A stretch of 24,623 bases of DNA from IMG/VR virus record IMGVR_UViG_3300023179_000494, positions 1 to 24,623 of that record; one strand, given 5' to 3'. The DNA comes from a virus. The position numbers were made by a program, and so were the translations under genes. The stretch's first letter is position 1, and each line of letters opens with the position of its first letter. The notes beneath the pieces were generated by a model, which was given only the letters and a program-made list of their open reading frames with translations, did not search any database and was not told where the DNA came from. This document shows positions 1,176 to 24,623 of this stretch, piece by piece.

Positions 1176-2096
1176 ATGAAATTACTTGATATTATTTTTG
1201 AAGCAGGTGCCATGGGTGGAGGAGGTGTTGCGGGCTATATGGGAGAAAATGACGACGTTGATGAAATGGCAATCCAACAGTTTAAAACTGTTGGGGATTG
1301 GGAACGACGTTCTTCTTTTGGAGATATAGATAGAAAATTGTTAACTTCACCAAAAGGTGTAGAAAAGATTAGACGGCAATGGGAAAAAACTCCATATAAT
1401 TTTGACATGTACCTTGTTAATGATCCAAGAGTAAACAAATCTCAATTTAGAGAAGTAGGCGTTGTTAACATGGATTTTGTGAGAGATAAGATGGGGCTCA
1501 CCCCAGAGGAAATTCCAGATCCAGATGGAAATACAATAACTATTATCTATACAAGCAATACAGGGGCAGAACGTTACATGGCTTCTGGCTGGATTTTAGC
1601 ACATCGTTTAGGCCATGCAATCGCAAGAGGCAACGATTATATTGCAAAAATGTGGGGAGAATTTATAAATCGCTTACGCAGAAGAGTAGCCAGTATATTA
1701 GATCGAGTTTACAATATCGATACCCACCCAAGAAGATTTGATTTTTCAGGTAGATTTGATTCAGAGGGTGAAATAAAAAGAGAAAAAATATTAAAATATG
1801 TAGCTCAACAACTTGGCACAATGAAAAGTGCTCGTGAAAATAAAATGCGTAGTTGGTATGAGTTTGCATATGAGTTATTAGCTCAATATCTCCTAACTGG
1901 TTCTATTAAATTCAACCCTCTGCCAAAACAATTACTCGTTGGTTATGGCCCTTACGGACGAAAACAAATTCGTTATTCAAGAGATGAAGAACTTCTTAAA
2001 GAAATTAATGGAGAATTAGAAGAATTTGCTATCACAATACAATTTGAATTAAAGTCAATTCTTGATGCCGCTGTTGGTTCTGTATTTGTAATGTAA
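1176..2096 (+). CDS. Putative internal head protein with capsid-targeting-like N-terminus and HRLGH motif
   Basis: 306 residues, no confident family. Residues 1-9 (MKLLDIIFE) followed by Ala-Gly have the form of a T4 capsid-targeting sequence, with an I-F-E|A site for a gp21-type prohead protease. A Gly-rich stretch follows to about residue 24. The same 24 residues, nearly unchanged, begin the otherwise unrelated gene at 13653. The body contains WILAHRLGHAIARG (His143, Arg144, His147), which looks like a zincin HExxH helix with the catalytic Glu replaced by Arg. YEFAYELLAQYLLTG (228-242) resembles the downstream Glu helix of such metallopeptidases. I infer a packaged virion protein with a zincin-like fold that is probably not a normal protease. 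ATG start; no clear ribosome binding site. The function is unknown; the N-terminal similarity is directly visible. Confidence 0.8.
   Translation: MKLLDIIFEAGAMGGGGVAGYMGENDDVDEMAIQQFKTVGDWERRSSFGDIDRKLLTSPKGVEKIRRQWEKTPYNFDMYLVNDPRVNKSQFREVGVVNMDFVRDKMGLTPEEIPDPDGNTITIIYTSNTGAERYMASGWILAHRLGHAIARGNDYIAKMWGEFINRLRRRVASILDRVYNIDTHPRRFDFSGRFDSEGEIKREKILKYVAQQLGTMKSARENKMRSWYEFAYELLAQYLLTGSIKFNPLPKQLLVGYGPYGRKQIRYSRDEELLKEINGELEEFAITIQFELKSILDAAVGSVFVM
1188..1214 (+). repeat. 27-bp exact repeat, copy 1 (5' coding cassette)
   Basis: Codons 5-13 of this gene are identical base for base to 13665-13691 in the gene at 13653. Similarity continues with synonymous changes to about codon 24, and the first 8 bases of both genes also match. 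Beyond that the two proteins are unrelated. The block spans the predicted I-F-E|A cleavage site. Confidence 0.9.
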
Positions 2097-2214
2097 ACTA
2101 GATTTCCAGCAAGCACAAGATAATAAAATACGTGATCTTGCTGCCAATAACATTAACTCTATTGACAAAGTTAAGTACAATACAAATTGTATTCATGAGC
2201 TATATCATATTTAG
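2092..2214 (+). pseudogene. Short coding remnant, possibly the 3' end of an HNH-type gene
   Basis: A reading frame open from 2092 to the TAG at 2212-2214 has no start codon and reads LDFQQAQDNKIRDLAANN near its beginning. It shares 16 identical bases (2125-2140 with 3044-3059), in the same reading frame, with the 3' part of the HNH gene just downstream (LDLKNKIRDLV). It also ends with a Cys/His pattern (NCIHELYH) loosely like the HNH end (CQGCHENLH). It may be what is left of an earlier homing-endonuclease copy or of a gene disrupted by one. The similarity is short, so chance is possible. Confidence 0.35.
2179..2193. repeat. 15-bp operator-like palindrome
   Basis: AATACAA and TTGTATT form 7-bp inverted arms around one central base, about 40 bases upstream of the HNH gene start. 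It could be a regulator site or chance in AT-rich DNA. Confidence 0.25.
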
Positions 2215-2230
2215 TGGTAATAAATAAATC

Positions 2231-3166
2231 ATGAATAAAACAGAGAAAAAGCCTATTGTCTTAACAGAAAAAGAAAAGCGCAAAAATAAAACGTATAACT
2301 GTCCTGAATGTAACGTTCAGTTTAATTTAAACTCTCTAAGAATTCACTATACAAAAACACATAATAAATCTTCAAAACAGCTTTGTACAATATTGTTTTA
2401 TGATAATATTGTACCAACTTGCAAATGTGGCTGTGGTGGTGAAGTTTATTTCTTTGGTCTAATGCAAGGATTTGGATCTTATGTAAAAGGTCATCATGTT
2501 AGAGAATATGATAAAAATCCTTGGAATAAAGAAAATGGTACGGAAGCCAAAAAGAAGTCAAAGGAAACAAAAAAGAAACTTTATGAGGAAGGTAAGTTCA
2601 AATACTTTGATGGTAAAGAACCCTGGAATAAAGGCAAAAGAAAAGCATTGGACCCAGAATATGCAGCAAGAATAACTTTTACCGACACTGTAGAGTTTAA
2701 ACAAAATCAAGCAAAAATAATTAAGAAAAATATGCAAGATGGAAAAATAGTTTTCAGAAAGGGAGAAAATTCTTCCTTATGGAAAGGAGGAATAAGTCCA
2801 TTGAATTCTTATTGTAGAAGTTCAAGCGATTTGTATAAAAAATGGATTTATCCTTGTTTGGTAAAAGATGAATTTAAATGCCAGCATTGTGGTATCAGCG
2901 ATAGTGAACTTGAAGTTCATCATGATGGGGAAACCTTTTCTTCAATTTTAAGAAAGATTGCAACTGCTGAAGGATGGATGGAGAAACATTTCTTAAATGA
3001 AAGATTGCAAAATCCTGATCAAGAAACACTAGATTTAAAAAACAAAATACGTGATCTTGTTATTAAGTATCACGTTGAAAATAACGTTAGCGGCATTTCG
3101 CTTTGCCAAGGCTGTCACGAAAACTTACACGAAAATTATAATCTAAAAAATAAAGATGTCGTGTAA
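2231..3166 (+). CDS. HNH homing endonuclease with zinc finger and NUMOD-like repeats
   Basis: 311 residues, likely a free-standing phage homing endonuclease that nicks or cuts DNA at a recognition site. Domain order: a C2H2-like finger (Cys24, Cys27, His39, His44); a Cys-rich CKCGCGG knot (64-70) found in many such phage enzymes; two NPWNK / EPWNKGK motifs (about 96-136) of the NUMOD3 DNA-binding type; GENSSLWKGG (178-187); and a C-terminal HNH core with Cys217-x2-Cys220, EVHHD (228-232) and Cys292-x2-Cys295-His296...His300 as zinc and catalytic ligands. All key ligands are present, so it looks intact. It lies between virion genes, convergent with the tail-tube gene, with 27 bases between them and no terminator. 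The ATG at 2231 has no Shine-Dalgarno sequence; its context, ataaatcATGaataaaa, is identical over 17 bases to the start of the gene at 24448. Confidence 0.88.
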   Translation: MNKTEKKPIVLTEKEKRKNKTYNCPECNVQFNLNSLRIHYTKTHNKSSKQLCTILFYDNIVPTCKCGCGGEVYFFGLMQGFGSYVKGHHVREYDKNPWNKENGTEAKKKSKETKKKLYEEGKFKYFDGKEPWNKGKRKALDPEYAARITFTDTVEFKQNQAKIIKKNMQDGKIVFRKGENSSLWKGGISPLNSYCRSSSDLYKKWIYPCLVKDEFKCQHCGISDSELEVHHDGETFSSILRKIATAEGWMEKHFLNERLQNPDQETLDLKNKIRDLVIKYHVENNVSGISLCQGCHENLHENYNLKNKDVV

Positions 3167-3193
3167 GTATGCGAAATTATTAAGGAAGTTGTA

Positions 3194-3682
3194 TTAAAAT
3201 GTTGCGTAAGCAATATCGTATTCTAGCGTTAGGGTGATTTCTTGCATTTCTGCTGATTCGTGTGCGAATTCACCAAAGTTTGCGGAAGTAATGAATGCGC
3301 CACGAATTTCCCAACGGTTGATTACGTTTAGAACTGGGTCTAGGATTTTGATAACAATATCGCGTTTGTAGAAGTCCATGTAACCAGAACGACCAGAAAT
3401 ATACTCAGTTGAAAGTCTTAGCCATTCTTGAATTTGTTGTGTTGCGTTTGGTGCAATTGCTTGGTGCAATGTGACGTTCATTGGTTGGAATGTCATTTTG
3501 GTTGCAACTTTGCGTTGAACGTTCAACCAGTGAATGTCGGCTTTTTCAACTTGAACTTCTGGGGCGGCAAATGATTTAATTAAGAAGTAGTCGATTCCTT
3601 CAATTTCAAGAACCGCCCTGTTTTTCATAACAGGTTCCCACTTCACTGGAAGTGTTTTGTTGATTGATAATGTTTCGGCCAT
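3194..3682 (-). CDS. 19: Tail tube protein (T4 gp19-like)
   Basis: 162 residues against 163 for T4 gp19. It is the inner tube of the contractile tail, a stack of hexamers that carries DNA through the baseplate. The sequence has the family look: an N-terminal PVKWEPVMKNRAVLEIEGIDYFLIKSF strand pair, the central FQPMNVTLHQ...WLRLSTEYISGRSGYMDFYKRDI, and the C-terminal strand WEIRGAFITSANFG...EITLTLEYDIA. It lies directly after two sheath genes on the same strand, as in T4 (18 then 19). ATG at 3682. The only plausible Shine-Dalgarno (AGGGA, 3692-3696) lies inside a perfect hairpin, suggesting control of translation. Confidence 0.9.
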   Translation of the reverse strand: MAETLSINKTLPVKWEPVMKNRAVLEIEGIDYFLIKSFAAPEVQVEKADIHWLNVQRKVATKMTFQPMNVTLHQAIAPNATQQIQEWLRLSTEYISGRSGYMDFYKRDIVIKILDPVLNVINRWEIRGAFITSANFGEFAHESAEMQEITLTLEYDIAYATF

Positions 3683-3739
3683 AATATAAAATCCCTATAT
3701 CTCTAGCTTTTAACTATTGAGATATAGGGATTTTATATT
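3683..3739 (-). promoter_or_regulatory. Perfect 21-bp hairpin abutting the tail-tube start codon
   Basis: Arms 3683-3703 and 3719-3739 are perfect inverted repeats around a 15-nt loop. In the minus-strand mRNA the 3' arm ends immediately before the ATG and contains the AGGGA Shine-Dalgarno candidate, so a transcript reading in from the sheath gene would bury its ribosome binding site. The 5' arm contains a TATAAAAT box. A transcript starting there would lose most of that arm and leave the site free. The hairpin could instead be an RNA processing site or a weak terminator. Confidence 0.75.
3730..3737 (-). promoter_or_regulatory. Weak late-promoter-like TATAAAAT box
   Basis: Matches the T4 late consensus TATAAATA at 6 of 8 bases, and sits about 47 nt upstream of the tail-tube ATG in the 5' arm of the hairpin. 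Tentative, because such boxes occur often in AT-rich DNA. Confidence 0.3.
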
Positions 3740-3740
3740 G

Positions 3741-3768
3741 TCCTAAAATCGATTTAGGATATTTTTTT
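3741..3768 (+). terminator. Small terminator-like hairpin between sheath and tube genes
   Basis: TCCTAAA (3741-3747) pairs with TTTAGGA (3753-3759) and is followed on the plus strand by a T-rich run ending at 3768. It reads as an intrinsic terminator for plus-strand (antisense) transcription. On the minus strand it has no U-tract. It lies just after the stop of the 3767-6778 gene. The 7-bp stem is weak. Confidence 0.4.
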
Positions 3769-6700
3769 ATGATGTAAATTGTACTGAGTTTCTGGTTAGA
3801 ACGAATGTTACATCGATAAATTCAAGCGCACGGGTTGGTTGAACAACGATTTTGCCACGTATTGTTCTGTTGGCTCTATCGAGTGCTGTGGTTGTTGTTG
3901 TGTCAATCACTACTCTGTATTGATCAACGCCACCAAGATCTTGAATTTCTTTTAACACTGGTTCAATTTGACGTTGGAACCCTGCGAGAGCATCGTCTGT
4001 ATATTGTTCAAATAGGTTAGATTTGGCAATTGCACGGATTCTCCTTCTAAGGGTTAGCATCATTCTGCGGACATTGATACGTTCTAGGGCTGAAACTGTT
4101 GCGTTAACTGTCTTTTGTCCCCAGACTTTAACTCCTTGGCCTTGGAAGGCTGTGATTGGGTTAATTTTTTCTGGATATAGATCGTCAATGTTTTCTTGTT
4201 TAAGATTTAGTGCAGTTCTTTCAACAGAGTTTAGAGCGCCACGGCTGAAGCCTGCTGGTGCAAACCATGGGTGACCGATAAGATCATTTAAACCGTATGC
4301 GCCTAGAACGGCAACTGTTGGTGGTACACGAACCGATACTCTGTTAAAGTCGTCTCTAATGATAACATCTGGGAAGTAGGCGGCAGCGTAAGATGAATTC
4401 AATCCTCTATTTCTAAAGTTTGTAATTGTTTGAGAGATAGAAACATCTTGTGAGTTTGGATCAACAACAGCGTTACCATATGTATCTTCTTCTTCGATAT
4501 CAAAGATGTAGAAAATATCTTTTCTGTCATTTGTTGCGATATCAATTGCTGCATCAGTAATAATTGAATGACGGATTCCTGGGAGTACAAAAAGTCTGCC
4601 GTCAACTTCAGAGGCATCTGATACAAGATGCAGAGCTTTTGTATAGGCTTTAACAGTTGGACCATTTGAGAAACCTCTGTTTGAAGAGTCCATTTCTTCT
4701 GTTATGGCTTTGTTTGTTAGGTAGTTTGTGTCTGTGTTAAAGATTCTTACTCCATCAAAACCGCCATAGAAATATGTTGTAAATTTAGCAATGCTTCTGG
4801 TTGTTGGATCAGCAAGATCGCTTAATGTTAGTGCTCTTGTTAGATTGGTTGTATTTGTTGCAATATTACCTGCACGGACATATGTCCAATCTTTTAGTCT
4901 GTTAACATCGGGTAAGTTTGTAGCAGATATATAATAAATTTGAACTTTTTCAAGACTGAAAAGGTTATTATTAAACCTATCTGCATCTAGGATACCATTT
5001 GTGGTTGTATCTGCCACGCCTTCATTGTTATCAACAGTAAAATTCATCCAATCAAGTTGGAAATTTGGGAAGTATTTGCTTCTTGATGGTAAGCTTTTGT
5101 TTGGTACTGCTGAACTATTTGGTTCGCTAATAGAAACAACGTTTTCAAATTGTACGCCCCAGTACAGTGAGCGATCAACTGTTTTGGTTGTACCAGAACC
5201 TTTTGTTAGTGCTGATCTATATGGAACTGGCGGCTCAACAACTTTATAGAATGGATTTTGTGAGCTCAAATAAGCAGCATCACTGAATGCTGGCAAAGGA
5301 GAAGAACCAGATGTTACCAAGTGTTGTGGACCTCTAAAGCCCATTGGCATTAATCCAGAGTTAATATCTCCATTATCAACCAACGCATTCATTTCAACAC
5401 GAATATAACGTGAACGTAGATCATAGTTGCCTGTTTCGGTTAAGCCTTGTTGATCTTCTCCAATATCAAAATTATAATAAACGTGTTTATCGCCAATTTG
5501 TTTGGCGATGTATGAATCTGATGTTGGATTTAGTGTTAATCCTCTAAAGGCTTCTAAAACAACCTTACCGCCATCTGAATCGCCAAAGCTTCTTACAACA
5601 ACATCGAATGTGCCGTATGGAGCGGCATCGTTTGTTGATGGGAAAATGTTTTCAATGCTAACTTTAACATTGTTTTTATCACCATCAGAAATTAGATGTA
5701 GTTTAAAGAGGTTTTGATATAAACCACCTTGTTTTTGTGAAATAAACCAAGGTGTGTGGGCTGTTTGATAACGGTCTTCAAAATTTTCGTAGTTTGGAGC
5801 AGTTGCTGAACCGCTGTTGCGAGTTTGTGAACCAGTAACCAAGAATGCGATATTTTCTTTTGTTCCACCAACAGCATTTAAAATAATACCAGAACCAGTT
5901 GGCACAGCAATTGCACTTTGAATGTCATAATAAGAATAAAGAACATATCCTGCTTCTTCCATTCTTTGTGCATCCCTGTTGAAAACATTACCAAAATAAT
6001 TTGGGGCAGAAGGATCAAAAGATGCTGTAAGGGCTCTTGGGAAAAGTTCATTTGAACCTTTGTGACCGTTGAGAAGCATTACGAATTCTTGAGCGCCATT
6101 TAATAAATTAACTGTACCTGTAACGTAACCTTTGACAGTTCCTGCTGAAAAATCAGCAGAAGTTGATGCGCTAGGCAATGAAGAGTCTGGGTCTTTTGAT
6201 GAAGAAAGGCGCAAGATTACGCCTGATGCAGCCATGATTACGCCACGTAATACAGGTTGACCAACCCCAGATAAACCAGCATCACTAAACAAGGTTGATC
6301 CAGCACTTTGGCTCATATATGCGCCAAGAAAATATGTTCTGCCTAGTGTGCCAGCAGCAGTTGGAGATGTGGAAGTTGCATTTGCATATGCATTGTTTCC
6401 AAGACCGCCAGAAAGTGCGCTTTGTGGTTGTTGCGCGCCGACAACGAAACCAGCACTTTCTACTTTACCTCTGTTGTCTCCACTTTCTGTTCTTTTTAAA
6501 CCCAAACCAACACCAAGAACTCTAATCTGAGTTAATGCTTGCTGTGTTCTAAACCATTCAGTTGCTGCTAGAGAACCATAGTTTAGATACGTTCTTGGGA
6601 AACCAAAGTAGCTTCTCCAATCTTGTAATGTTGGTACTAGTACAGGAACAAATGCTGGCCCGATTTCTGTAGTTGAAATAATAACAGCAGGTAAGCCAGA

Positions 6701-6778
6701 AGGAAGAATAGATGTTCCTCCACTTAAGTCGATTTCACGAACTCCGACACCCGCGCTTTTAAATGTTAGATCTACCAT
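3767..6778 (-). CDS. 18: Tail sheath protein, tube-proximal copy (T4 gp18-like)
   Basis: 1003 residues, well above the 659 of T4 gp18. Contractile outer sheath of the tail. N-terminal signs: VGVREIDLSGG and GPAFVPV (40-46). Central: the YGTFDVVVR...DSD strand with IRVEMN and YGGFDGVRIF. The conserved C-terminal domain runs from INPITAFQGQGVKVWGQKTV through RINVRRMMLTLRRRIRAIAKSNLFEQ to GKIVVQPTRALEFIDVTFVLTRN, the part that links neighbouring subunits in known sheaths. The extra length lies in the middle, where sheaths usually carry surface domains. The ATG at 6778 is preceded by AAAGG with good spacing. It is a clear but diverged paralogue of the upstream gene at 6899-9964 and is separated from it by a strong terminator, so it probably has its own promoter. 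It is followed by the tube gene. Confidence 0.93.
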   Translation of the reverse strand: MVDLTFKSAGVGVREIDLSGGTSILPSGLPAVIISTTEIGPAFVPVLVPTLQDWRSYFGFPRTYLNYGSLAATEWFRTQQALTQIRVLGVGLGLKRTESGDNRGKVESAGFVVGAQQPQSALSGGLGNNAYANATSTSPTAAGTLGRTYFLGAYMSQSAGSTLFSDAGLSGVGQPVLRGVIMAASGVILRLSSSKDPDSSLPSASTSADFSAGTVKGYVTGTVNLLNGAQEFVMLLNGHKGSNELFPRALTASFDPSAPNYFGNVFNRDAQRMEEAGYVLYSYYDIQSAIAVPTGSGIILNAVGGTKENIAFLVTGSQTRNSGSATAPNYENFEDRYQTAHTPWFISQKQGGLYQNLFKLHLISDGDKNNVKVSIENIFPSTNDAAPYGTFDVVVRSFGDSDGGKVVLEAFRGLTLNPTSDSYIAKQIGDKHVYYNFDIGEDQQGLTETGNYDLRSRYIRVEMNALVDNGDINSGLMPMGFRGPQHLVTSGSSPLPAFSDAAYLSSQNPFYKVVEPPVPYRSALTKGSGTTKTVDRSLYWGVQFENVVSISEPNSSAVPNKSLPSRSKYFPNFQLDWMNFTVDNNEGVADTTTNGILDADRFNNNLFSLEKVQIYYISATNLPDVNRLKDWTYVRAGNIATNTTNLTRALTLSDLADPTTRSIAKFTTYFYGGFDGVRIFNTDTNYLTNKAITEEMDSSNRGFSNGPTVKAYTKALHLVSDASEVDGRLFVLPGIRHSIITDAAIDIATNDRKDIFYIFDIEEEDTYGNAVVDPNSQDVSISQTITNFRNRGLNSSYAAAYFPDVIIRDDFNRVSVRVPPTVAVLGAYGLNDLIGHPWFAPAGFSRGALNSVERTALNLKQENIDDLYPEKINPITAFQGQGVKVWGQKTVNATVSALERINVRRMMLTLRRRIRAIAKSNLFEQYTDDALAGFQRQIEPVLKEIQDLGGVDQYRVVIDTTTTTALDRANRTIRGKIVVQPTRALEFIDVTFVLTRNSVQFTS

Positions 6779-6795
6779 ATTTTAACCTTTAATTT

Positions 6796-6898: not shown

Positions 6899-9800
6899 TT
6901 AAACTAACAAGAATGTTCCGCTATTTGTGATAATAAAATCTAGAACAATGTATTCAATTGATTCAATTGGTTGAACCAAAACTGTTGCGTTTAATTTATT
7001 ATTTTCTCTATCAACTTCTGTATTATTGGTATCATCACAAACCACTTTAAAGGCTTTGATGCCTTTGGATTGCTGAATTGTTGATAGTTGTAATGAAGTT
7101 GCCGTGATAAATCTATCACGAATTTCATTTGTTAGTTGTTCAAACAAGAGGTTATTACCAATATTTGCAATTGCTCTTGCCACTTCAATTGCAAGACGTT
7201 TAACATTTACTCTAGAGGTAAGAGCATTTATTCCTTGTTTGAGGGTGTATTGAGAGAATATTACAAAGGTGCCTTCATCTTTAAAGATTGGGTTAATTCT
7301 TGTATCATAGAATAAATCCTTATCAGAAGCTTTAACTCTTTGAGATACGCCCTTAACAAATGAAAGTGCGGCACGATTTAATCCTGCGGCAGCATACCAT
7401 GGATATGCAACTCTATCATTAAATCCGTATGCAGCTAGTGCGGCAACAGAAGCTGGAACAACAGTTAGTTTGTTGTTTACATTATCTTCAATTGTTACTG
7501 ATGGGTGATATACTGCAACAGCATTGTTATTTAATGCTCTTGCATCAAATTCTTGTGCTGTTTTAGTATTATCAATATAATGTCCAATTTCTCCATCAAA
7601 AATTCTTACAGAATTGGAATCATAAGCTGGAATATCCATTATGTAGAATGCCTTGCCGAAACTTAGAACTTTTTGTGCGGCATAATCTGTAACAACTGGT
7701 TCACGTTGACCTGGCAATACAACCAAGTTAGATGGTGATGTTAATGGATCTGTAACAACATTAACGGCTGTTTTATAGCTATTAACTTGGTTGTTATTAT
7801 CTCCAACACCATTTTGGTTTGTTGTAAATCCTGGAGAAATGTAATTTGAGGCAGCACCGCCAAATCCAATTGAACCAGATTCTACTGATGTTGATCTGTC
7901 TGTAAATCTTCTAGCATCTTTATCTAGAATGTTTACACCATCAAAACCACCGTATATTAAAGTTGTAAACTTCGCATATTCGGCAAAACGGTTAAAATCT
8001 GATGGAGAACCTTTTTGCAAAATGGTTGCAAAAGTGATTCTATCTCCATAGCTGCCATCAGTAATTTTGTAGTTTGTTCCATCTGGCACACCATTTCTGA
8101 TATACGCCGCATTTTTCATAATTGTCCCAGTTGATGATGTTAGATCAGCAATAGAACCATTAGCAAATGCAACACGGGCAAGAGTAAATTTGTTATCATT
8201 AAATAAATCTACACTAGAGCCTGTAATAACTGTATCGAGTTTTGGAATACCCGTAAATTTAGCGTAGCTTTTGATTATTGGGTTTAGTGTATCAGAAGTA
8301 TTTGTGTTTGTGGCATCGTTGTTTCTTTCAAATTTAACACCCCAAAACAATCTAGAATCTGCAATTTCTGTTGCTCCTGGTTGACCAGTAAATGCAGCAG
8401 AAGAAGTTATATTGCCTCTTGTTACTTTAAATCTAAATGGTAGTGGTGGTGCAATTGAACCAGTTAAAGCTGGGAAGGTTAGTATCGCCGCTGAAGCAGA
8501 AAGTGCCATTCTGCCAACACCTGATACGTCGGTTAATGAATCACTTGATTTTATAGTGGTTACACCTCTAAACCCAAATGGTAATGCACTGGCTGGAGTA
8601 ACTTTTGTTAATACATTTGAGTTTATGGCAACTCTAATATATTTGGATTTATTTGGATATGTACCTATTACTTGAAGACCACGATCAGATTCACTTTCAA
8701 AATCAAATTTATATGAAGTTTTTGTGTCGCCAATCACTTTGCCAATGTAGTTATCCGAATCTTGATCAAGAGTTACGTTTGTAAATTGTTCAAGAATTTC
8801 TTGGTTAAAATCACTATCGTTAAAGTTACGAACTAGAACTGTAAATGTTCCATATTGATTGTTTGGATCTGAAGATGCTTTTAGATTTGCAATTGAAATT
8901 TTCACCATTTCATTTGCATTAGCGCCATCTGATAATGGTTCAAAAGAGAATAAGTCATATTCCAAGTTACCAAATGGTTGAGAAATAAATGATGGTGTGC
9001 TTGGAGTTGTGTATCTTGTATCAAATCTTCCAAAAAGATTTCTAAATGGAACTGAAGTTAAACCTCCTGTTGCAGTTGTACCAGCAGAGCCAGAAACAAT
9101 GCCAACTGAACTTGAAACAAATGTACCAGTTGCTACAGCGGCAATTTCTGCATCTACTGCAAAATCTGCATACAAGTAGTGACCAGTGGTTGCAAATTTA
9201 TCTGGATCAGTGTTTAGTACATTTGCATAGTAATCTGCATCAGATGGGTTTAAAGAAGCTGTATAAATTGTAATTCCAGCGAAGCCATCACTATTTCCAA
9301 ATGCAGTTCCAAGGCTTGTTGAAACAATTAGTTTAAATTTACCGTTTGTTATACTGTTTGAACCGCTATCAATTGTAGCAACGTCATCAAGAGCGTTTGT
9401 ATAGGATTCGTTTACGCCATCCATTATCATGATGCGTGAACCAGATGAGCAAAAGATCATGCCTCTTACTAAGTTAACCGCATTTCCTGCTAAAGAATAT
9501 GATCTGTTATCCGTAAACATTGGATAACCATATGCTTCTTGGTTTGTTAGAGTGTGGCGGGCAACTAAGAATTGAACAGCCCCTTGATGACGACCATCAC
9601 CTGAAATTTGAACTACCGAAGAAGAAACTGCAAAACCTGCGTTCTGCACAATCCCTTTTGTGCGGGTATCTTCAAAATCTCCAGAGCCGCTGTTTGTACC
9701 TGCTCCTAACAATCTAACGAAAACTGCGTTTGTTCTGTTTTCTAGCCATCTTTGGGAGGCATAAGTGGCTGGATAACCTGGGGTTACCGAGCCAAATATT

Positions 9801-9964
9801 GCTATTTGATCCGAAAATGAACCAAGTGAAACAGGTACAAATGCAGGTCCAAAAACTGATGCGCCAATAATTGCAGCAGGAGTTCCTACTGGTTGAATTA
9901 CTCTAAGTGAAGCATCAATTTCAGAATCATAATATCCTGGTGCTTTTAATATTTGTTCTGCCAT
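6899..9964 (-). CDS. 18: Tail sheath protein, neck-proximal copy (T4 gp18-like)
   Basis: 1021 residues, a second sheath paralogue. It shares with the other copy the N-terminal GPAFVPV (39-45), the central YGTFTVLVRNFNDSD and SKYIRVAINSNV strands, IYGGFDGVNIL, and the C-terminal domain from INPIFKDEGTFVIFSQYTL through RVNVKRLAIEVARAIANIGNNLLFEQ to VLVQPIESIEYIVLDFIITN. Overall similarity by eye is low outside these blocks, so the duplication is old or one copy was acquired separately. The ATG at 9964 follows AAAGG at a rather long spacing. Upstream is the gp15-like gene, downstream a strong terminator. It may build a mixed sheath with its neighbour or serve a different tail part; the sequence does not say which. 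Both copies look intact. Confidence 0.92.
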   Translation of the reverse strand: MAEQILKAPGYYDSEIDASLRVIQPVGTPAAIIGASVFGPAFVPVSLGSFSDQIAIFGSVTPGYPATYASQRWLENRTNAVFVRLLGAGTNSGSGDFEDTRTKGIVQNAGFAVSSSVVQISGDGRHQGAVQFLVARHTLTNQEAYGYPMFTDNRSYSLAGNAVNLVRGMIFCSSGSRIMIMDGVNESYTNALDDVATIDSGSNSITNGKFKLIVSTSLGTAFGNSDGFAGITIYTASLNPSDADYYANVLNTDPDKFATTGHYLYADFAVDAEIAAVATGTFVSSSVGIVSGSAGTTATGGLTSVPFRNLFGRFDTRYTTPSTPSFISQPFGNLEYDLFSFEPLSDGANANEMVKISIANLKASSDPNNQYGTFTVLVRNFNDSDFNQEILEQFTNVTLDQDSDNYIGKVIGDTKTSYKFDFESESDRGLQVIGTYPNKSKYIRVAINSNVLTKVTPASALPFGFRGVTTIKSSDSLTDVSGVGRMALSASAAILTFPALTGSIAPPLPFRFKVTRGNITSSAAFTGQPGATEIADSRLFWGVKFERNNDATNTNTSDTLNPIIKSYAKFTGIPKLDTVITGSSVDLFNDNKFTLARVAFANGSIADLTSSTGTIMKNAAYIRNGVPDGTNYKITDGSYGDRITFATILQKGSPSDFNRFAEYAKFTTLIYGGFDGVNILDKDARRFTDRSTSVESGSIGFGGAASNYISPGFTTNQNGVGDNNNQVNSYKTAVNVVTDPLTSPSNLVVLPGQREPVVTDYAAQKVLSFGKAFYIMDIPAYDSNSVRIFDGEIGHYIDNTKTAQEFDARALNNNAVAVYHPSVTIEDNVNNKLTVVPASVAALAAYGFNDRVAYPWYAAAGLNRAALSFVKGVSQRVKASDKDLFYDTRINPIFKDEGTFVIFSQYTLKQGINALTSRVNVKRLAIEVARAIANIGNNLLFEQLTNEIRDRFITATSLQLSTIQQSKGIKAFKVVCDDTNNTEVDRENNKLNATVLVQPIESIEYIVLDFIITNSGTFLLV

Positions 9965-13652: not shown

Positions 13653-14258
13653 ATGAAATTGAAAGATATTATTTTTGAAGCAGGTGCCATGAGCGGTGGT
13701 GGCGTCGTTGGCTACATGGGAGAAGAAGACACTAGTTTGGACGAGAAAAAACAAACAAAAAAAGATGACAGATGTACTAGAATTGCAAAAAGAAAATACC
13801 GTCGTTGGCCTAGTGCCTATGCCTCTGGTGCAGTAGTCCAATGTAGGAGAGGTAGGATATGGCGAGATCTAAAAGAAGAATTTGAAAATCTTGATTTAGA
13901 TGAAGAGTACGTTGACGCTTATCATGGCATGAATGAAGAAGAACAATTAGAAGAAGAAGTGTTGGTTAATCCCGAAGAAGTAAATGAAGAGATTATTGAA
14001 TTACTTTTAAATGAATTACTTTCAGAAGGTAAAAGATTTAAAGCAGAAAAAGAAAAGGGTTTGCATGGTTGGTTTTCAAGAAATAGAGGCAAAGGCTGGA
14101 TTGATTGCCGCACAGGAGGACCTTGTGGACGGGAAAAGGGAGAAAAAAGAAAATATCCAGCTTGCAGACCAACAAAAGCAATGTGCAATAAGGTTGGCCC
14201 AAGAAGAAAAAAAGGTAGAAAACCAGTATCTTGGGTTCCAAAAAGCAAACAAAAATAA
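13653..14258 (+). CDS. Putative packaged basic protein with capsid-targeting-like N-terminus
   Basis: 201 residues in three parts after a leader. Residues 1-24 are almost the same as those of the gene at 1176, with I-F-E|A at 7-10. Residues 32-72 are basic with Cys41 and Cys64 and the motif RWPSAYASGAVVQCRRG, which I recall as recurrent in phage and giant-virus proteins of unknown function. Residues 73-125 are very acidic (runs of Glu). Residues 126-201 are basic: GLHGWFSRNRGKGWIDCRTGGPCG, then KYPACRPTKAMC with four cysteines, possibly metal-binding, and a Lys/Arg-rich end. A second L-S-E|G site (123-126) falls exactly between the acidic and last basic parts. I infer a DNA-associated internal head protein matured by the prohead protease. 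No Shine-Dalgarno sequence is visible before the ATG. It probably shares a transcript with the gene at 14312. Confidence 0.82.
   Translation: MKLKDIIFEAGAMSGGGVVGYMGEEDTSLDEKKQTKKDDRCTRIAKRKYRRWPSAYASGAVVQCRRGRIWRDLKEEFENLDLDEEYVDAYHGMNEEEQLEEEVLVNPEEVNEEIIELLLNELLSEGKRFKAEKEKGLHGWFSRNRGKGWIDCRTGGPCGREKGEKRKYPACRPTKAMCNKVGPRRKKGRKPVSWVPKSKQK
13665..13691 (+). repeat. 27-bp exact repeat, copy 2 (5' coding cassette)
   Basis: Identical to 1188-1214, in the same codon positions (5-13) of the gene at 13653. See the first copy. Confidence 0.9.
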
Positions 14259-14311: not shown

Positions 14312-15067
14312 GTGGAAAAAATAACTCTTAGACAAGTCAGTGACAAACCAATTGGAACTTTGGTTCGACCAGTTCAATTGTATAAAGGTTGCATTTTTCC
14401 ATACAAAGAAAAAGAGAATTTTGGATTTTGGTTTAGTAGAAACCAGAAAATAAAATGTTCTCATCAATCATTTAAAAGTTCAATTGAGAACTACAAGGTT
14501 TTTATGGGGCAAGAAAAAAATATAACAAAACAATTTGAAGAACTAAAATTTGGAGATTTAAATCAATCAAATAATTTATTAAGGGATACATACACTGGTG
14601 TTGTAACCAGTTTTGTTTATTACGATAATAAAGGTTATCGACTTTGTGATAGTCTTGAAAAGCAAGAAAAACTATTGGCTAAAAAAAATAAATACAAAGA
14701 TTTACATATTAAATTTTTAGGGGTAAAGTTATATCATGATGTTGATTTACAATCTTTAGAAGGCAAAAATGAATGGAAGTATCACTCGCAAGAACATTTT
14801 GATTTTCTTTATCCGAGTGAATTTGTTGTAACGCTAAAACATTTAATAAAGTATGAAGCAATCCAACAAACTCAAAATATTGTTACTTCAAGGAAAGAAT
14901 ATATTGTTTTATCCACTGGGATAAAAAATAACTTGGCAACAATAGCTTTAAACTCCTTGAGTAATAAGGAGGTTAAGATATTGACTGATACAAAAATCAG
15001 GTTTTTTGAACCTAATATAGCTTTTACAATAAAGGAATTAAACTCTTCAATTTCTCAAACAGGTTGA
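14312..15067 (+). CDS. Hypothetical protein, uncertain start
   Basis: 251 residues from a GTG at 14312; I do not recognise a family. It is Lys-rich and mixed alpha/beta in appearance, with no signal peptide, membrane segment or Cys cluster. An in-frame TGA at 14294-14296 limits extension upstream. An ATG at 14307 is out of frame, giving only ATG-TTG-TGG-AAA-AAA-TAA, but one extra A in the following A6 run would join it to this frame. The true start may therefore involve a homopolymer error or slippage. It lies 53 bases after the gene at 13653, probably in the same transcript. Its 3' end overlaps the convergent gene at 15055 by 13 bases, and no terminator is visible between them. Confidence 0.65.
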   Translation: MEKITLRQVSDKPIGTLVRPVQLYKGCIFPYKEKENFGFWFSRNQKIKCSHQSFKSSIENYKVFMGQEKNITKQFEELKFGDLNQSNNLLRDTYTGVVTSFVYYDNKGYRLCDSLEKQEKLLAKKNKYKDLHIKFLGVKLYHDVDLQSLEGKNEWKYHSQEHFDFLYPSEFVVTLKHLIKYEAIQQTQNIVTSRKEYIVLSTGIKNNLATIALNSLSNKEVKILTDTKIRFFEPNIAFTIKELNSSISQTG

Positions 15068-15327: not shown

Positions 15328-16329
15328 TTATAAATTATTTTGTTTTATTTTGTTTAACAATTCTCGTTGTTCTTCCGTAATTGATTGTGGAAACTCGGGA
15401 ATAATATTAATCTTTAATAAACCTCGTTTACCATTTTTTGGTAAACCCTTGTCTTCAATAACCACTTCATTTTGACTGGTTGTAAATTGAAATACTAGGT
15501 TTTCTTCCCCATCATGCAAATTTAGCTCCTTTTCTCCTCCAAGAAGAAAATCATAGATGCTAACTTTAACATCTTTCATTAGGTGTTGTTTGTTGGGTGA
15601 AAGATAAAAATCTTTTGGAATATCAATTGTTGTTCGTACAATATAAATAACTTCTACATCTTGTACATTTCTGCTTATTTTTCTACCAGATGGAGCGTTA
15701 GCTTGGACTTCTATTTCTTCTTTTAGATGTTGCGTAGTTGATCCAGAGCCATTGCACGATTTGCAATTTTCAATTTCAACACCCATGCCTCCACAATATT
15801 CGCAAGCGGTTTGGATCATTTGTTGAAAAAACCCGTTGGAAGATTTTTTCACTTGAGCCCCTGAACCATTACATTCATTACATTTGCGATTAGTTGGTAC
15901 AACACACCTACCCATGCAATCAAAGCAGGTTAAATTAAAGTTTAGATCTATGTTACGTTTGCATCCTTGCACCGCTTCCTTAAAAGATAAAAGGATTGGT
16001 TCATTAATTTCAACTTCAACTTGCTTTGGTTTTTCTTGCTTTTGTTGCCTCATTACTCCCCTGCCCATAAACTGGGCAAACATATCAGCTATATTGCCGA
16101 AATTAAAACCATGGTGTTGATTTTTTGAGGCTTCATAACTGCCGTCATTGATAGAGTTATAAGCGTTTTGAACTTGTTTAAATTTGTTTTCTGCCGTAGC
16201 TTTTTCTTCGTCAGTTTTACCATTTTGTCTATCAGGATGATATTCAAAACATTTTGCCCGATAAGCTTTTTTTAATGTTTCTTCATCACATCCCTCAGAT
16301 ACACCTAATACTTCATATGGATTTTGCAT
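15328..16329 (-). CDS. dnaJ: DnaJ-type (class A) co-chaperone
   Basis: 333 residues from the ATG at 16329 (start NPYEVLGVSEG); an upstream in-frame TTG at 16380 would add 17 residues unlike any J-domain and is less likely. DnaJ proteins pass clients to Hsp70 (DnaK) and trigger its ATPase through the HPD motif, seen here at 31-33. Then comes a very short Gly/Phe segment (HHGFNFGN, 72-79) and a zinc-binding region with four CxxC pairs (135/138, 150/153, 176/179, 189/192). The first repeat reads CFDCMGRC instead of CxxCxGxG. A C-terminal substrate domain follows, with DFLLGGEKEL and KGLPKNGKRGLLKINI typical of DnaJ CTD II, and no clear dimer extension. All main ligands are kept, so it should be active. 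Its place among tail genes suggests a role in virion protein folding, probably with host DnaK; that is inference. Confidence 0.93.
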   Translation of the reverse strand: MQNPYEVLGVSEGCDEETLKKAYRAKCFEYHPDRQNGKTDEEKATAENKFKQVQNAYNSINDGSYEASKNQHHGFNFGNIADMFAQFMGRGVMRQQKQEKPKQVEVEINEPILLSFKEAVQGCKRNIDLNFNLTCFDCMGRCVVPTNRKCNECNGSGAQVKKSSNGFFQQMIQTACEYCGGMGVEIENCKSCNGSGSTTQHLKEEIEVQANAPSGRKISRNVQDVEVIYIVRTTIDIPKDFYLSPNKQHLMKDVKVSIYDFLLGGEKELNLHDGEENLVFQFTTSQNEVVIEDKGLPKNGKRGLLKINIIPEFPQSITEEQRELLNKIKQNNL

Positions 16330-16356
16330 GTTTGAGATAACTTTCTTGGCTAGTAT

Positions 16357-16376
16357 CAACACTGTCTTTAGTGTTG
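16357..16376 (-). other. Short hairpin upstream of the DnaJ-like gene
   Basis: CAACACT pairs with AGTGTTG (7 bp, 6-nt loop) between the stop of the 16391 gene and the favoured DnaJ start codon. It may influence translation or processing. There is no U-tract, so it is not an intrinsic terminator. Confidence 0.35.
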
Positions 16377-16390
16377 TCAACTTAACTTGT

Positions 16391-19707: not shown

Positions 19708-19989
19708 TTACAAAAATGCTCTTATATCATCTATATTTGGGACAATTATTGATGTGCCAGGTGGTACTTGTAGACTATTTCCAATGTTTGATGCGGCAGC
19801 TAAAATATCATATTTTAAAGGATCACCATAAAACTCGGCAGCAAGAGTGTCTAAACGTTCTTTGCCAGTTAATATATGTAGACTGTATCTAACAACACCA
19901 GCAGCAATAGCTTTTCTTAACTGTGGTATAAATTCTGATGTCCCATAATATTGTCCTAAATTTAAGAGTGGGGTACGATCATATCTCAT
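19708..19989 (-). CDS. LysM-domain tail/baseplate protein (gp53/gpX type)
   Basis: 93 residues. The C-terminal half is a LysM fold: ERLDTLAAEFYGDPLKYDILAAASNI, then LQVPPGTSIIVP (about 44-84), with the typical Asn-Ile and Pro-Pro-Gly turn. In contractile tails small LysM proteins (P2 gpX, T4 gp53, PVC7) join the tube or hub to the baseplate rather than act on peptidoglycan. The ATG at 19989 is set by a strong AGGAG nine bases upstream, embedded in the end of the preceding gene, so the two are probably translationally coupled. The downstream hub-like gene follows closely. Confidence 0.85.
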   Translation of the reverse strand: MRYDRTPLLNLGQYYGTSEFIPQLRKAIAAGVVRYSLHILTGKERLDTLAAEFYGDPLKYDILAAASNIGNSLQVPPGTSIIVPNIDDIRAFL

Positions 19990-19993
19990 TGGT

Positions 19994-22900: not shown

Positions 22901-23188
22901 ACTTGTTTTAGCCTCTTCCGAATCAATTGTTTTTAAAAGAGTTTTTTGAAACTCAGGAACAGTTGTTAATGGAGCCTCACCAGCCCCCTTATCAGTTTCA
23001 TAATAATTTCTTGATATTGGGAAAAAATCATTTGCATTTTCGCTGTTAATTCCAACAGTTTCAGAAACTTCTTTTCTAAACTCTTGTACAATATCATCTC
23101 CACGATTTGGCTCAGTTGGAATCCTTTCCAATTGACTTTCCAAAACAATAAAATATTTCCCTGTGTTGTTGTGTCTATAGAACGACAT
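19994..23188 (-). CDS. Large tail/baseplate structural protein
   Basis: 1064 residues, first gene of the baseplate block. I do not recognise a named family, but several parts look like phage tail proteins. VPFYFHDLRTNEIISFHAFLESVSDN through TINFTFKI...MWYKVNRLAACLYPQYS (about 605-690) resembles a recurring segment of myovirus baseplate proteins. LQVGDQVEIRPKGSKHRW to VTGEIVEIHPSSRR (about 784-860) looks like a small SH3-like barrel insert. Cysteines in WVICVNPGC and FKCDGD...AFCSTEGKGLAC could form disulfides or bind metal. The C-terminal MEITPIHDINPGLDNKGF ends in a segment common to baseplate proteins. The N-terminal 450 residues are rich in Asn, Gln, Ser and look flexible. ATG at 23188 without a clear Shine-Dalgarno sequence. 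Seen: size, context and segments; inferred: the baseplate role. Confidence 0.65.
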   Translation of the reverse strand: MSFYRHNNTGKYFIVLESQLERIPTEPNRGDDIVQEFRKEVSETVGINSENANDFFPISRNYYETDKGAGEAPLTTVPEFQKTLLKTIDSEEAKTSLETTSNSNMLGFRIKKGKLALNPEDPSWPDLLNQLSKNPQESKINRSVDNLLSSNNINSPSKPFFNPQDYNENKVILGSIQYKNLGEHAPRKYPDVVEANLQENQITIEEMKKVGLNLLLAASGLDLLAVSIENDNPNAQSIVEDGDKITFGSFKPTTVLKSVKPKYQNTDNNDSAFDNSNLVTSHGSPNNPIRPYTGTREQISSPVLFAKIVTISHALNQIIQRFSLTGRGLGDHLANGTSRDRQKLLGSNLANAGAENTANTLDPFDTPPLTNDFYQSVQAGFKQFFGLADNFNSQNGSPSQEHAGKNPKMYGYISTFVRKLNVAIKQLNLSQQPTSLPVTTGGASSTLNANSIPNEELVESLKSNFAIKFIKVLSIIGDKALIILHTQQQVPVQGIDGYVSDIDSVEELISPNDARFDPGILVIKHRLDTNHGGLAYANTTLESMLLVPRGILEANAALVESSDFPAGNALVELVKTNKVITSAQNDRISQADVKSMEDYLEMDYVPFYFHDLRTNEIISFHAFLESVSDNLSAEFNETEGYGRTGVVPVYKNTKRTINFTFKILATSQDDHEQMWYKVNRLAACLYPQYSEGRLLNYQGSKFIQPFSQVFAASPLMRIRFGDLWKSNYSKLAVARLFGLAGLADGERSTFELASTRVVSVRPQPNRISQQQQQLEASTEAPRPLQVGDQVEIRPKGSKHRWAAASRDNNYMGNPAATSEAQARGQLTGEYIRAANLFLYIPSNSAYVTGEIVEIHPSSRRTGFNYYVRVTNANTGASGQLGGVITNGGNTRARDINNIIQYSKDPTGWVICVNPGCLNRVVQIIREPPPPQQQIETVNNSIPDFFKCDGDDPNPIMKAFCSTEGKGLACVIRSMNLDGLTEVPWSVERFDGRAPQLLTVAMEITPIHDINPGLDNKGFMTAPIWPTGTIVNNIMGNNESSNEGLEKFNQSRSKYLFPSTNKLGA
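19999..20003 (-). promoter_or_regulatory. Strong Shine-Dalgarno AGGAG for the LysM gene
   Basis: One of the few clear ribosome binding sites here. It lies within the last codons of the preceding gene, 9 bases before the ATG, and decides the LysM start. Confidence 0.75.
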
Positions 23189-23285
23189 AATTCTAAATTC
23201 TAACTACATAGTATTCATTTTTTAAACTTTGTAGTTTTTGTATCTTATTTAAAATTAAACTCTTATTTAATAAAGGGAAATATAA
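23189..23285. other. Divergent intergenic region
   Basis: These 97 AT-rich bases lie between the leftward baseplate block and the rightward gene at 23286. No exact TATAAATA is present. A one-mismatch CATAAATA on the minus strand (23309-23316) lies inside the plus-strand gene and is a weak candidate for the leftward operon. Confidence 0.5.
23272..23277 (+). promoter_or_regulatory. Shine-Dalgarno AAAGGG for the gene at 23286
   Basis: A clear purine-rich site 8 bases before the ATG, fixing the start. Confidence 0.65.
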
Positions 23286-24341
23286 ATGAAACCAAATAAA
23301 TCAAAATTTATTTATGAGGCAGTCTCAAACTATCGTAATGAAGTGAATGTTGCCTATAATATAATAAAAGAAGCTCTAAAAAATCCTGCTTTTGCAGAGG
23401 TAAAAGTCAAATATAAAAACGTTTTAGAAGTACAACTTAACGAAGCGTTTTTTCCAACCGCACCTTCATTAAGAAGACTATCTGTTGGGCCAGCATTAAC
23501 TGGCCCAACAACAGCGGCACTAAATGCAATTGCTAGACTAGAATACTTGCTAAATACAACTGATCCAACTACAAATGAAGTTGGAGCAAAAGAAGTTGCA
23601 ATGCTTAATAAGGCAATCAATGATGCAGCAGAAACTCTTGATTTTGAAAGAGATAAAGATGAAGAAAGATTAAATGCTAGACTAGCCAAAGCTCCAACAA
23701 AAGAAGATCGCGACATGCTTGTTGATGAGATAAATTCTATCGCCAAATCAGTAGAAACTGTTAAACAAAATGCCAAAGTTGCGCTTAGTAAAGCATATTT
23801 TAGATTAAAAGAACTTCTTGATTTTTTTGCCGCAAAAAAATCAGAAATTGATGCGGTTATTAACAACGTAATTTCAGCAAGCACTGATTTATCTAAACAC
23901 AGAATTGGTAAAGGTTCAGCACAAGCAGCAATTAAAGCGGCAGAAGTAAGAAGAGAAAAGAAACTTAAAGATATTGAGCTTGAAGATGAAACAGAAGCAT
24001 TTGAGAGAAAAATAAAAGGGGGTGGAATTGGTTCCATGCTCCGAGGTTTATTTAGAGAAGAAAAACAAAAAATTCACGAAGGTTTAATGAGCGATTTATT
24101 AAGTCCTGGTAACGGTCAACTTGATAAATACACATCAAAAGTTGACGCTTTTATTGACGAGGCAATCGAAACCTGCGATGAACTAGTTGAAGAAGGCAAT
24201 AGTATACTAGAAGAAGATTTTTATCGCCTTCCACAAGCAGGGGAAAGATCAAGATTGATTCTTGAAATGATTGGTTTAATCAAGAAATTTAAATGCGATC
24301 TTGAAAACATTCCATGGCAACTTAGACAACGTATGGGTTAA
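23286..24341 (+). CDS. Putative internal head or scaffold-like helical protein with multi-site leader
   Basis: 351 residues, largely helical and charged, no named family. The first ~54 residues hold three (I/L)-x-E|A sites: I-Y-E|A ending at residue 11, I-K-E|A at 29 and L-N-E|A at 53. The next gene begins with a paralogous leader carrying sites at 9, 27 and 50. More such sites occur later: I-H-E|G (265) and I-D-E|A (292). The middle (100-245) is probably coiled coil (KDEERLNARLAKAPTKEDRDML, AAEVRREKKLKDIELEDE). This pattern, many prohead-protease-type sites in a helical protein, recalls T4 scaffold and internal proteins. The start is fixed by AAAGGG 8 bases upstream. The gene points away from the baseplate block and is followed by a palindrome and an intrinsic terminator. 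The role is inferred from the leader, not from homology. Confidence 0.82.
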   Translation: MKPNKSKFIYEAVSNYRNEVNVAYNIIKEALKNPAFAEVKVKYKNVLEVQLNEAFFPTAPSLRRLSVGPALTGPTTAALNAIARLEYLLNTTDPTTNEVGAKEVAMLNKAINDAAETLDFERDKDEERLNARLAKAPTKEDRDMLVDEINSIAKSVETVKQNAKVALSKAYFRLKELLDFFAAKKSEIDAVINNVISASTDLSKHRIGKGSAQAAIKAAEVRREKKLKDIELEDETEAFERKIKGGGIGSMLRGLFREEKQKIHEGLMSDLLSPGNGQLDKYTSKVDAFIDEAIETCDELVEEGNSILEEDFYRLPQAGERSRLILEMIGLIKKFKCDLENIPWQLRQRMG

Positions 24342-24358
24342 TCTAAAATTTTAGATTA
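24339..24358. repeat. 20-bp perfect palindrome at the stop codon
   Basis: TAATCTAAAA and TTTTAGATTA meet without a loop, starting at the TAA stop of the gene at 23286. It may form a weak hairpin or cruciform before the terminator, or serve as a protein site. Confidence 0.6.
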
Positions 24359-24367
24359 AAATTATAG

Positions 24368-24405
24368 AGGCATCAGTGTTAATCAACTGATGCCTTGTGT
24401 TTTTT
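24368..24405 (+). terminator. Rho-independent terminator
   Basis: A 10-bp perfect stem, AGGCATCAGT with ACTGATGCCT (24368-24377 and 24386-24395), 8-nt loop, followed by TGTGTTTTTT. It ends the transcript of the gene at 23286 before the paralogue at 24448. Confidence 0.9.
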
Positions 24406-24447
24406 ATAAGATCTATTTTTTTAGTTTATATTTATTTCATATAAATC

Positions 24448-24623
24448 ATGAATAAAAATAAATTATTACTTGAAGCAGTAAAATACCAACAAAAAAAACT
24501 TGGTCATATAGAAGGTATATTAAAAGAAGCACTAGCACATCCTGTGTTTGAATCTCTTAAACAATTTGAAAACGAACTTGAATATCAATTGTTTGAAGGA
24601 GTTGTTTATGGTATTGTAGAGCG
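24448..24623 (+). CDS. Partial gene: paralogue of the leader of the gene at 23286
   Basis: 58 codons are visible before the window ends. The ATG at 24448 lacks a Shine-Dalgarno sequence; its context matches the HNH gene start over 17 bases. The leader is alignable with the gene at 23286: (N)K-x-K...LLEAV against FIYEAV, GILKEALAHPVF against NIIKEALKNPAF, and LEYQLFEG against LEVQLNEA. The three candidate cleavage sites (L-L-E|A at 9, L-K-E|A at 27, L-F-E|G at 50) keep the 18- and 23-residue spacing. I infer another internal head protein made as a precursor. The body is outside the window, so nothing can be said of its mature function. Confidence 0.8.
   Translation, partial: MNKNKLLLEAVKYQQKKLGHIEGILKEALAHPVFESLKQFENELEYQLFEGVVYGIVE

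Follow-up and report, generated by a model that had tools for sequence, protein, structure and literature searches.

Four plus-strand genes of an uncultured virus of bacteria start with short, similar sequences, which raises the question of whether their products are sent into the phage head. Internal proteins of phage T4 carry a capsid-targeting sequence of about 10 residues that ends in F-I-x-E↓A (the arrow marks the cleavage point) and is cut by the gp21 protease after entry into the prohead. We analysed positions 1-24,623 of IMG/VR record IMGVR_UViG_3300023179_000494 (the window, 24,623 nt) together with related phages. With a probability of roughly 0.83, we infer that, in a tailed phage whose head is of the T4 type, the four genes carry T4-like capsid-targeting leaders on packaged and probably injected proteins.

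Four genes of the window with T4-like leaders

The features of the window to which we refer, with the evidence for each, are as follows.

1176..2096, plus strand: leader gene 1, 306 aa, phage-only domain with an invariant H-R-x-G-H (ORF, relatives, structure model)
1176..1202, plus strand: leader MKLLDIIFE, predicted cut before Ala10 (sequence)
1203..1247, plus strand: AGAMGGGGVAGYMGE segment in common with gene 13653 (82% identity over 17 aa)
2231..3166, plus strand: HNH-type endonuclease, leaderless (phrog_8446, E 4e-4)
3194..3682, minus strand: tail tube protein gp19, anchor for finding relatives (PF06841, E 6e-8; phrog_4542, E 1e-23)
6899..9964, minus strand: tail sheath protein with a paralogue at 3767-6778 (tblastn to phage tail sheaths; paralogy)
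13653..14258, plus strand: leader gene 2, 201 aa, WPSAYASG motif region and DUF5872 (PF19197, E 6e-7; phrog_727, E 1e-10)
13653..13679, plus strand: leader MKLKDIIFE, predicted cut before Ala10 (sequence)
14312..15067, plus strand: leaderless gene with a counterpart in relatives G004 and G002 (ORF, comparison with relatives)
23286..24341, plus strand: leader gene 3, 351 aa, helical (judged from sequence by eye) and internal-protein-like
23286..23318, plus strand: leader MKPNKSKFIYE, predicted cut before Ala12 (E-A-V invariant in three family members)
24448..24623, plus strand: leader gene 4, incomplete at the window end, paralogue of gene 3 (40% identity to the start of 23286)
24448..24474, plus strand: leader MNKNKLLLE, predicted cut before Ala10 (sequence)

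Translation of the ORFs, with gene starts taken from a simple purpose-written caller, gives the N-termini MKLLDIIFE↓AGAM (1176-2096), MKLKDIIFE↓AGAM (13653-14258), MKPNKSKFIYE↓AVSN (23286-24341) and MNKNKLLLE↓AVKY (24448 to the window end), in agreement with the sequence-only reading, which had reported T4-like leaders on these four genes. The leader ends in (I/L)-x-E↓A in 4/4 genes, and all four thus have the (I/L)-x-E↓(A/G/S) form of a short T4-type capsid-targeting peptide. Because 23286 and 24448 are paralogous, the bodies behind the four leaders are of three unrelated types. Pfam search found no recognised enzyme domain in either paralogue. The 23286 gene is homologous to two adjacent genes, 95027 and 95339, of the 204-kb relative G002; a scan of viral contigs with its protein gave no relative, and the G002 homologue was found by reading G002. 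Across this family of three, E-A-V is invariant and most of the leader otherwise differs. The three complete proteins (1176, 13653 and 23286) have predicted mature masses of 34, 22 and 38 kDa and pI values of 8.0, 9.1 and 5.5, such that the 13653 protein is basic but the set does not fit the 'small basic' description of T4 IPI-III.

The orientation of these genes, opposite to the tail structural genes, had also been put forward. The observation is true as stated but not specific: since the leaderless genes 2231-3166 and 14312-15067 are also on the plus strand, we rejected orientation as evidence for packaging.

Leader frequency and cargo in related phages

From the window, we derived the motif [LFIVY][IL][FY]E in residues 1-12 and applied it to other records. 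In the window, it is present in 3/16 proteins (expected at most 0.06, p = 2.7e-5), and the strict T4 form [IL]xE[AGS] is likewise present in 3/16 (0.34 expected, p = 0.005); these counts are without 24448, which is below the 60-aa minimum of the test. The window motif starts 9 of the 228 proteins of G002 (0.75 expected, p = 1e-7) and 9 of the 82 proteins of an 86-kb contig, G008 (0.43 expected, p = 9e-10), and was found in 0/113 proteins of G007 and 0/194 proteins of phage immuto. The strict form is not enriched in G002 (8 vs. 4.8 expected), which reflects variation at the position following Glu: in the G002 and G008 leaders, it is filled by S, M, E, D, K, N, Q, Y or G. Hence the expectation of Ala, Gly or Ser after Glu held for the window, where all four genes have Ala, and failed in these two relatives. 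As a genome-wide predictor, the strict T4 rule was rejected, given that it showed no enrichment in G002, phage immuto or Mel-JY01. The cultured Flavobacterium phage vB_FspM_immuto_2-6A (phage immuto) has a T4-type head and leader-like starts of the form FLVE↓N or FLTE↓N on gp003, gp076, gp077 and gp092, and its gp084 contains DUF5872; Microcystis phage Mel-JY01 is a second cultured phage with a head of this type and leader-like genes. Clustering of N-termini by identity was dropped as a statistic because the paralogue background in G002 was too high. Leaders differ among homologues of the 1176 domain, yet [IL]xE is retained at each of the nine N-termini examined (4.1 expected, joint p = 4e-4).

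The proteome-wide scan of a relative, which had been suggested as a check, added about 10 proteins with the same leader. These belong to unrelated families, and several are of enzyme classes that have been described for proteins delivered by phages. In relatives, the leader precedes an ART-PolyVal ADP-ribosyltransferase (PF18760, E 5e-16), a GNAT acetyltransferase and, in G002, five kinase-like proteins of phrog_4301. The phrog_4301 sequences contain a glycine-rich loop, VLKV, D-x4-N and LDxG; their structure model is of low confidence (pLDDT 60), with best matches mostly to kinases and aminoglycoside phosphotransferases. We found no report of kinases with capsid-targeting leaders in the open-access literature. 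Most G002 leader proteins are acidic after maturation, in contrast to the small, basic internal proteins of T4, and cargo content differs between relatives.

These data bear on the alternative that the leader targets the prohead and is removed, with the proteins staying in the head as structural (core or internal) components rather than serving as injected effectors. Such a role would suit 23286 and 24448, in which no enzyme domain is recognised, and LxE↓A or IxE↓A is found close to the start of core and scaffold proteins of T4 as well (QLIAE↓A in gp22, LIE↓A in gp67). However, the ART, GNAT and kinase-like cargo of relatives has no obvious structural role, and the cargo varies among relatives; we therefore consider a purely structural function unlikely, although it is the strongest of the alternatives.

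Prohead protease and capsid maturation site

Comparison of the window DNA with 50,697 phage records gave no direct similarity match. No protease or capsid gene was found within the 24,623 nt of the window; the evidence on protease and capsid comes from relatives that share the tail genes of the window. An S77, T4-type prohead protease (PF03420) is encoded by the close relatives G002 and G003, and close relatives also encode the gp23 capsid protein (PF07068). In the alignment, G002 and G004 have VLME↓A at the predicted gp23 maturation site, where T4 has FLTE↓A, and the corresponding sites in two cultured relatives are IVSE↓A and LISE↓A. The comparison of protease and capsid site that the sequence-only reading had called for thus came out in its favour in the closest relatives. 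In the 86-kb G008 fragment, neither S77 protease nor gp23 was detected, although it holds the densest leader cluster. As a control, ipII and ipIII of T4 in the same collection start with MKTYQEFIAE↓A; processing of the T4 leader is governed by its residues 8 and 10 (P3 and P1; PMC9026906).

Alternatively, the leader might stay uncleaved, as a retained docking peptide that binds the phage scaffold or another assembly partner. The unconstrained residue after Glu in relatives, where large residues break the T4 rule, is compatible with docking, whereas the Ala after Glu in all four window genes, the reading LME↓A where the capsid protein of this phage group aligns with the T4 maturation site, and the invariant Glu, more readily explained by cleavage than by docking, make it improbable.

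The leader as a movable module

Genes 1176 and 13653 have 27 identical bases (GATATTATTTTTGAAGCAGGTGCCATG) across the junction of leader and following segment, and their products share about 15 further residues after the leader (AGAM.GGGV.GYMGE; 82% identity over 17 aa). Beyond the leader and glycine segment, the two bodies are unrelated, and all-by-all BLAST with leaders removed places the same leader on otherwise unrelated bodies. Because the 27 identical bases sit on unrelated bodies, the leader, judged from these sequences, behaves as a movable module. When DNA was scanned by pattern for the extended leader DIIFEAGAM, the sole match was the known relative L031. Some leader genes are paralogous (four in G008, the five kinase-like genes in G002, and 23286 with 24448), but it is highly improbable that the N-terminal likeness stems from shared ancestry or some general property (a preference at translation starts, for example) and not from targeting: unrelated bodies have the leader in common, its excess is restricted to certain genomes, with none in G007 or phage immuto, and no tail gene of the window starts with it.

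Relatives of the 1176 protein are 37-78% identical to it. The protein has no Pfam or PHROG match, and none was found in phage records, PDB sequences or, by profile, bacterial genomes. In its structure model, residues 1-29 (leader and glycine segment) have pLDDT <50 and are predicted to be disordered, and the fold begins at about residue 30. H-R-x-G-H, invariant in nine 1176-domain sequences, resembles HExxH with Arg replacing Glu, so that the zincin HExxH active site is absent. In fold comparison (VIA-align), the top nine rows are zinc metallopeptidases, with weak scores (Z 4.7 at most), and a Foldseek search of the PDB gave nothing significant (E >0.5). The domain is fused to a Pol-beta nucleotidyltransferase in G006 and G009, and is probably metallopeptidase-like but non-hydrolytic.

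Discussion

The interpretation of the leader-bearing proteins as packaged internal proteins is supported by the protease, the capsid site and the leader scan of the relatives; packaging, cleavage and injection we infer from these. The first 9-11 residues would be a capsid-targeting sequence that docks the protein on the internal core during prohead assembly; the S77 prohead protease would then cut after Glu of (I/L)-x-E, leaving a mature protein that starts at Ala inside the head, and the proteins would probably be ejected with the DNA at infection. The 23286 and 24448 products may be internal or core proteins, and DNA binding inside the head is a possible role of the basic DUF5872 protein 13653. 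Because related phages put the same leader on protein-modifying enzymes, the set is probably best seen as a modular cargo kit for host takeover or for blocking defences, all cargo functions being putative; the bacterium would receive this enzyme kit together with the viral DNA.

As in T4 IPI-III and Alt, unrelated proteins share a leader of some 10 residues with I-x-E↓A at its end, and, as in T4, the phage group has an S77 protease and gp23, a capsid protein with the same kind of site; the T4 internal proteins, too, have only the leader in common (PMC12373910). Unlike in T4, the leader core is IIFE, LIFE or ILFE, not EFIAE, relatives have various residues after the cut, and the cargo predicted in relatives consists of larger, often acidic proteins, among them kinase-like, GNAT and ART proteins. 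ART, kinase, GNAT and Pol-beta nucleotidyltransferase classes also occur in polyvalent proteins, which are thought to be co-delivered with DNA (PMC5512222); in contrast to these, the proteins described here are mostly stand-alone domains with their own short leader, only the G006 and G009 proteins being fused, and no leader protein of the window or G002 combines two effector domains. The likeness to DarB of phage P1, whose N-terminal signal, mapped to within the first 30 residues, sends an internal protein into the capsid (PMC9024508), is one of concept. In SPN3US and phiKZ, a gp21-related protease likewise cuts head proteins C-terminal to Glu, but most propeptides there are much longer, >100 residues in SPN3US (PMC5694885).

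The concept is already known from T4; the lineage, the leader wording and the cargo are new. The cargo families (1176 domain, DUF5872 protein and phrog_4301) recur behind IIFE, MKIKPLIFE, ILFE, MLKEYIEELVNE and LLQE, each keeping [LIV]-x-E, and because the same families sit behind different leaders in different phages, cargo may be re-tagged on moving between phages. A broader and tentative proposal, perhaps nearly an even bet, is that T4-headed phages outside the enterobacteria deliver protein-modifying enzymes as such a modular kit at time zero, with a lineage-specific address tag and re-tagged cargo.

In T-even phages, the shared leader revealed injected proteins that were later proven to be anti-restriction factors (PMC12373910). 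Should this reasoning apply here, the injected proteins of uncultured phages could be listed directly from sequence by a leader of nine residues, which would also flag candidate host-modifying and anti-defence enzymes that are now unannotated. Cultured phages with comparable leader sets exist, which makes the claim testable; if it is true, a phage lineage turns mobile enzyme domains into head cargo by means of a short tag.

Leader genes within the tail region

The minus strand of the window (24,623 b, IMG/VR virus record) encodes a contractile tail, which is broken up by six sizeable plus-strand genes. Four of these begin with the T4-like leaders described in the sequence-only reading, and their N-termini read as stated there in the window ORFs (a slash marks the predicted cut after Glu).

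Features of the window
Minus strand: tail tube (PF06841, E 6e-8)
Minus strand: two paralogous sheath-like proteins
Minus strand: sheath stabiliser
1176, plus strand: N-terminus MKLLDIIFE/A
13653, plus strand: N-terminus MKLKDIIFE/A
23286, plus strand: N-terminus MKPNKSKFIYE/A
24448, plus strand: N-terminus MNKNKLLLE/A; gene cut by the window end

The leader genes do run opposite to the tail genes, but two plus-strand genes without such a leader, 2231-3166 (HNH-type) and 14312-15067, share this orientation, so that orientation alone is no marker of the set. The tail-sheath-like proteins 3767-6778 and 6899-9964 adjoin and are ~30% identical, with the same pair in the related contigs G002 and G004, where a DnaJ-like gene also occupies the same position among the tail genes as in the window (15328-16380).

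Prohead protease and predicted capsid maturation site

Searching with the tail tube yielded five related contigs, including G002 (203,914 b) and G003 (172,135 b), which are identical over 114,409 b and therefore the same phage. The window, G001, G004 and G005 match G002 at 75-89% identity in the tail sheath and at 86-91% in the tail tube. The prohead protease and major capsid protein that the sequence-only reading proposed to look for are encoded in these relatives: an S77 protease (PF03420, E 1e-24) in G002 and G003, and a gp23-type capsid protein (PF07068, E about 1e-59) in G002, G003 and G004. The window fragment (24,623 b) contains neither gene, and we therefore infer the T4-type head of the window phage from its relatives.

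In the G002 capsid protein, the region that aligns with mature T4 gp23 lies just after VLME66/A; a cut after Glu66 would remove nearly as many residues as the T4 gp23 propeptide has, namely 65 (PMC5694885). Among six aligned capsid proteins, this place reads FLTE/A (T4), IVSE/A (the cultured Flavobacterium phage vB_FspM_immuto_2-6A, hereafter immuto), LISE/A (Microcystis phage Mel-JY01), LLKE/T (contig G009) and VLME/A (G002 and G004), the last being a putative site of the kind anticipated from the leaders. In the gp22-like scaffold of G002, [ILV]xE[AGS] occurs nine times, vs. 3.3 in shuffles (0.2% of shuffles). T4 ipII and ipIII (MKTYQEFIAE/A), gp22 and gp23, from the same collection, served as the positive control.

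Directly after the G002 tail tube gene, a small plus-strand gene (116069-116548) encodes a product matching gp23-type capsid residues 445-574 (28% identity, E 4e-13). At 62-93 kb (L019, L020), G002 carries ~25 short paralogous genes in two arrays of opposite orientation, whose shared starts resemble MKTIKLK..E.IP.NFTGIVE and which have motifs in common, HREDGPAIEW among them.

Leader frequency compared to chance

The motif [LFIVY][IL][FY]E in the first 12 residues, read from the window and then applied to other records, is in excess in G002 (9 of 228 proteins, where internal positions would give 0.64 and shuffling of the N-termini 0.75; p = 1e-7) and in G008, an 86.5-kb contig found with the 1176 protein as query (9 of 82 vs. 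0.43 expected; p = 9e-10). It occurs at 0 of 113 protein starts in contig G007 and at none in immuto, where the looser [FIL][IL]xE is over-represented (18 vs. 5.3 expected; p = 1e-5) and a leader of the phage's own wording, FDLKKFLVE, is repeated. Because the residue after Glu varies, G002 shows no enrichment of the strict T4 form, [IL]xE[AGS] (8 vs. 4.8 expected).

Leaders on unrelated bodies

The leader behaves as a module: when leader proteins were compared all against all with leaders removed, the bodies formed many unrelated groups. Several G002 leader proteins match no family; the others include ADP-ribosyltransferase (ART), kinase-like and acetyltransferase (GNAT) proteins.

Leader proteins of G002
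28172: ART (PF18760, E 5e-16)
Five leader proteins: kinase-like (phrog_4301 matches)
195751: GNAT (PF00583, E 4e-5)

The G008 bodies include the domain forming the body of the 1176 protein, four minus-strand paralogues of one family without assigned function, one protein with a HELGH motif, one judged ART-like by eye and one weakly matching VanY-like peptidases (E 0.02). Nine leader genes lie within 12 kb of G008 (47512-59319). Genes 1176 and 13653 share 27 consecutive identical bases at the leader and 82% identity over the 17 residues after it, with unrelated bodies, which suggests that the tag was copied recently. Between tail genes of contig G012 (886-4169, L129) stands a tandem array of four kinase-like phrog_4301 genes, whose leaders are almost identical (MLKEYIEELVNEVLRGF).

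Conservation around the predicted cut

The 1176 domain is present in ten viral contigs, behind strongly divergent leaders (MIKLSDIIFE/A, MSNLKLYNILYE/N, ..VKELIAE/T, ..QTWISE/A and ..RALIE/V), and [IL]xE is kept in 9 of the 9 N-termini examined (4.1 expected; joint p = 4e-4). G006 and G009 encode the domain as part of a fusion, where it follows a Pol-beta nucleotidyltransferase (PF01743, E 2e-36 in G006), with ..QITE/A or ..ILSE/Q near the N-terminus. The family of 23286, 24448 and G002-95339 has an invariant E-A-V after the leader, most of which is variable, and other phages carry members of the WPSAYASG/DUF5872 family behind different leaders (e.g., MKHIIKEVLLQE/A) and inside fusions, there with LxE/A or LxE/G in front.

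An S-adenosylmethionine lyase family protein of Mel-JY01 (L144 12405-13691, record 52405-53691; PF23780, E 4e-10) has the leader-like start MQFKQYILGE/SS and is possibly a packaged anti-restriction enzyme. Two Mel-JY01 paralogues (L145 276-926 and 2056-2718; starts MIKLKSLLQE/I and MIKLMSLVTE/T) have ART-like features, judged by eye, and neither a Pfam nor a PHROG match.

Predicted structures

AlphaFold modelling of the 1176 protein (nine sequences; pLDDT 77.5) left residues 1-29 below 50, with the fold beginning at about residue 30, as would be expected of a removable leader and linker. The top fold matches are zinc metallopeptidases, all weak (Z 4.7 at most), and an invariant HRxGH stands where HExxH would be, so ordinary peptidase activity seems unlikely. 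One kinase-like protein gave a poor model (pLDDT 60), with kinases and aminoglycoside phosphotransferases as most of its best matches; its sequence retains the glycine-rich loop, VLKV, D-x4-N and LDxG.

Probable delivery with the DNA

The leader is the sole common part of T4 Ip1-3, three inhibitors that act on different type IV restriction enzymes (PMC12373910). The window leaders follow the sequence part of the T4 capsid-targeting rule, and their interpretation as T4-like targeting signals is probably right; we infer packaging, cleavage and injection of the leader proteins as well as the roles of the cargo. For polyvalent proteins, thought to be delivered by phages and plasmids with their DNA, four protein-modifying classes are listed (PMC5512222), and these are the classes found behind the leader in the relatives (ART, kinase-like, GNAT and Pol-beta nucleotidyltransferase). 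This match played no part in finding the leaders and is, in our analysis, the independent evidence that most strongly supports delivery. Compared to the T4 mechanism, the leader in this new lineage is worded differently, the demands after the predicted cut are relaxed and the cargo is richer; we read the leader set as a variant of that known mechanism.
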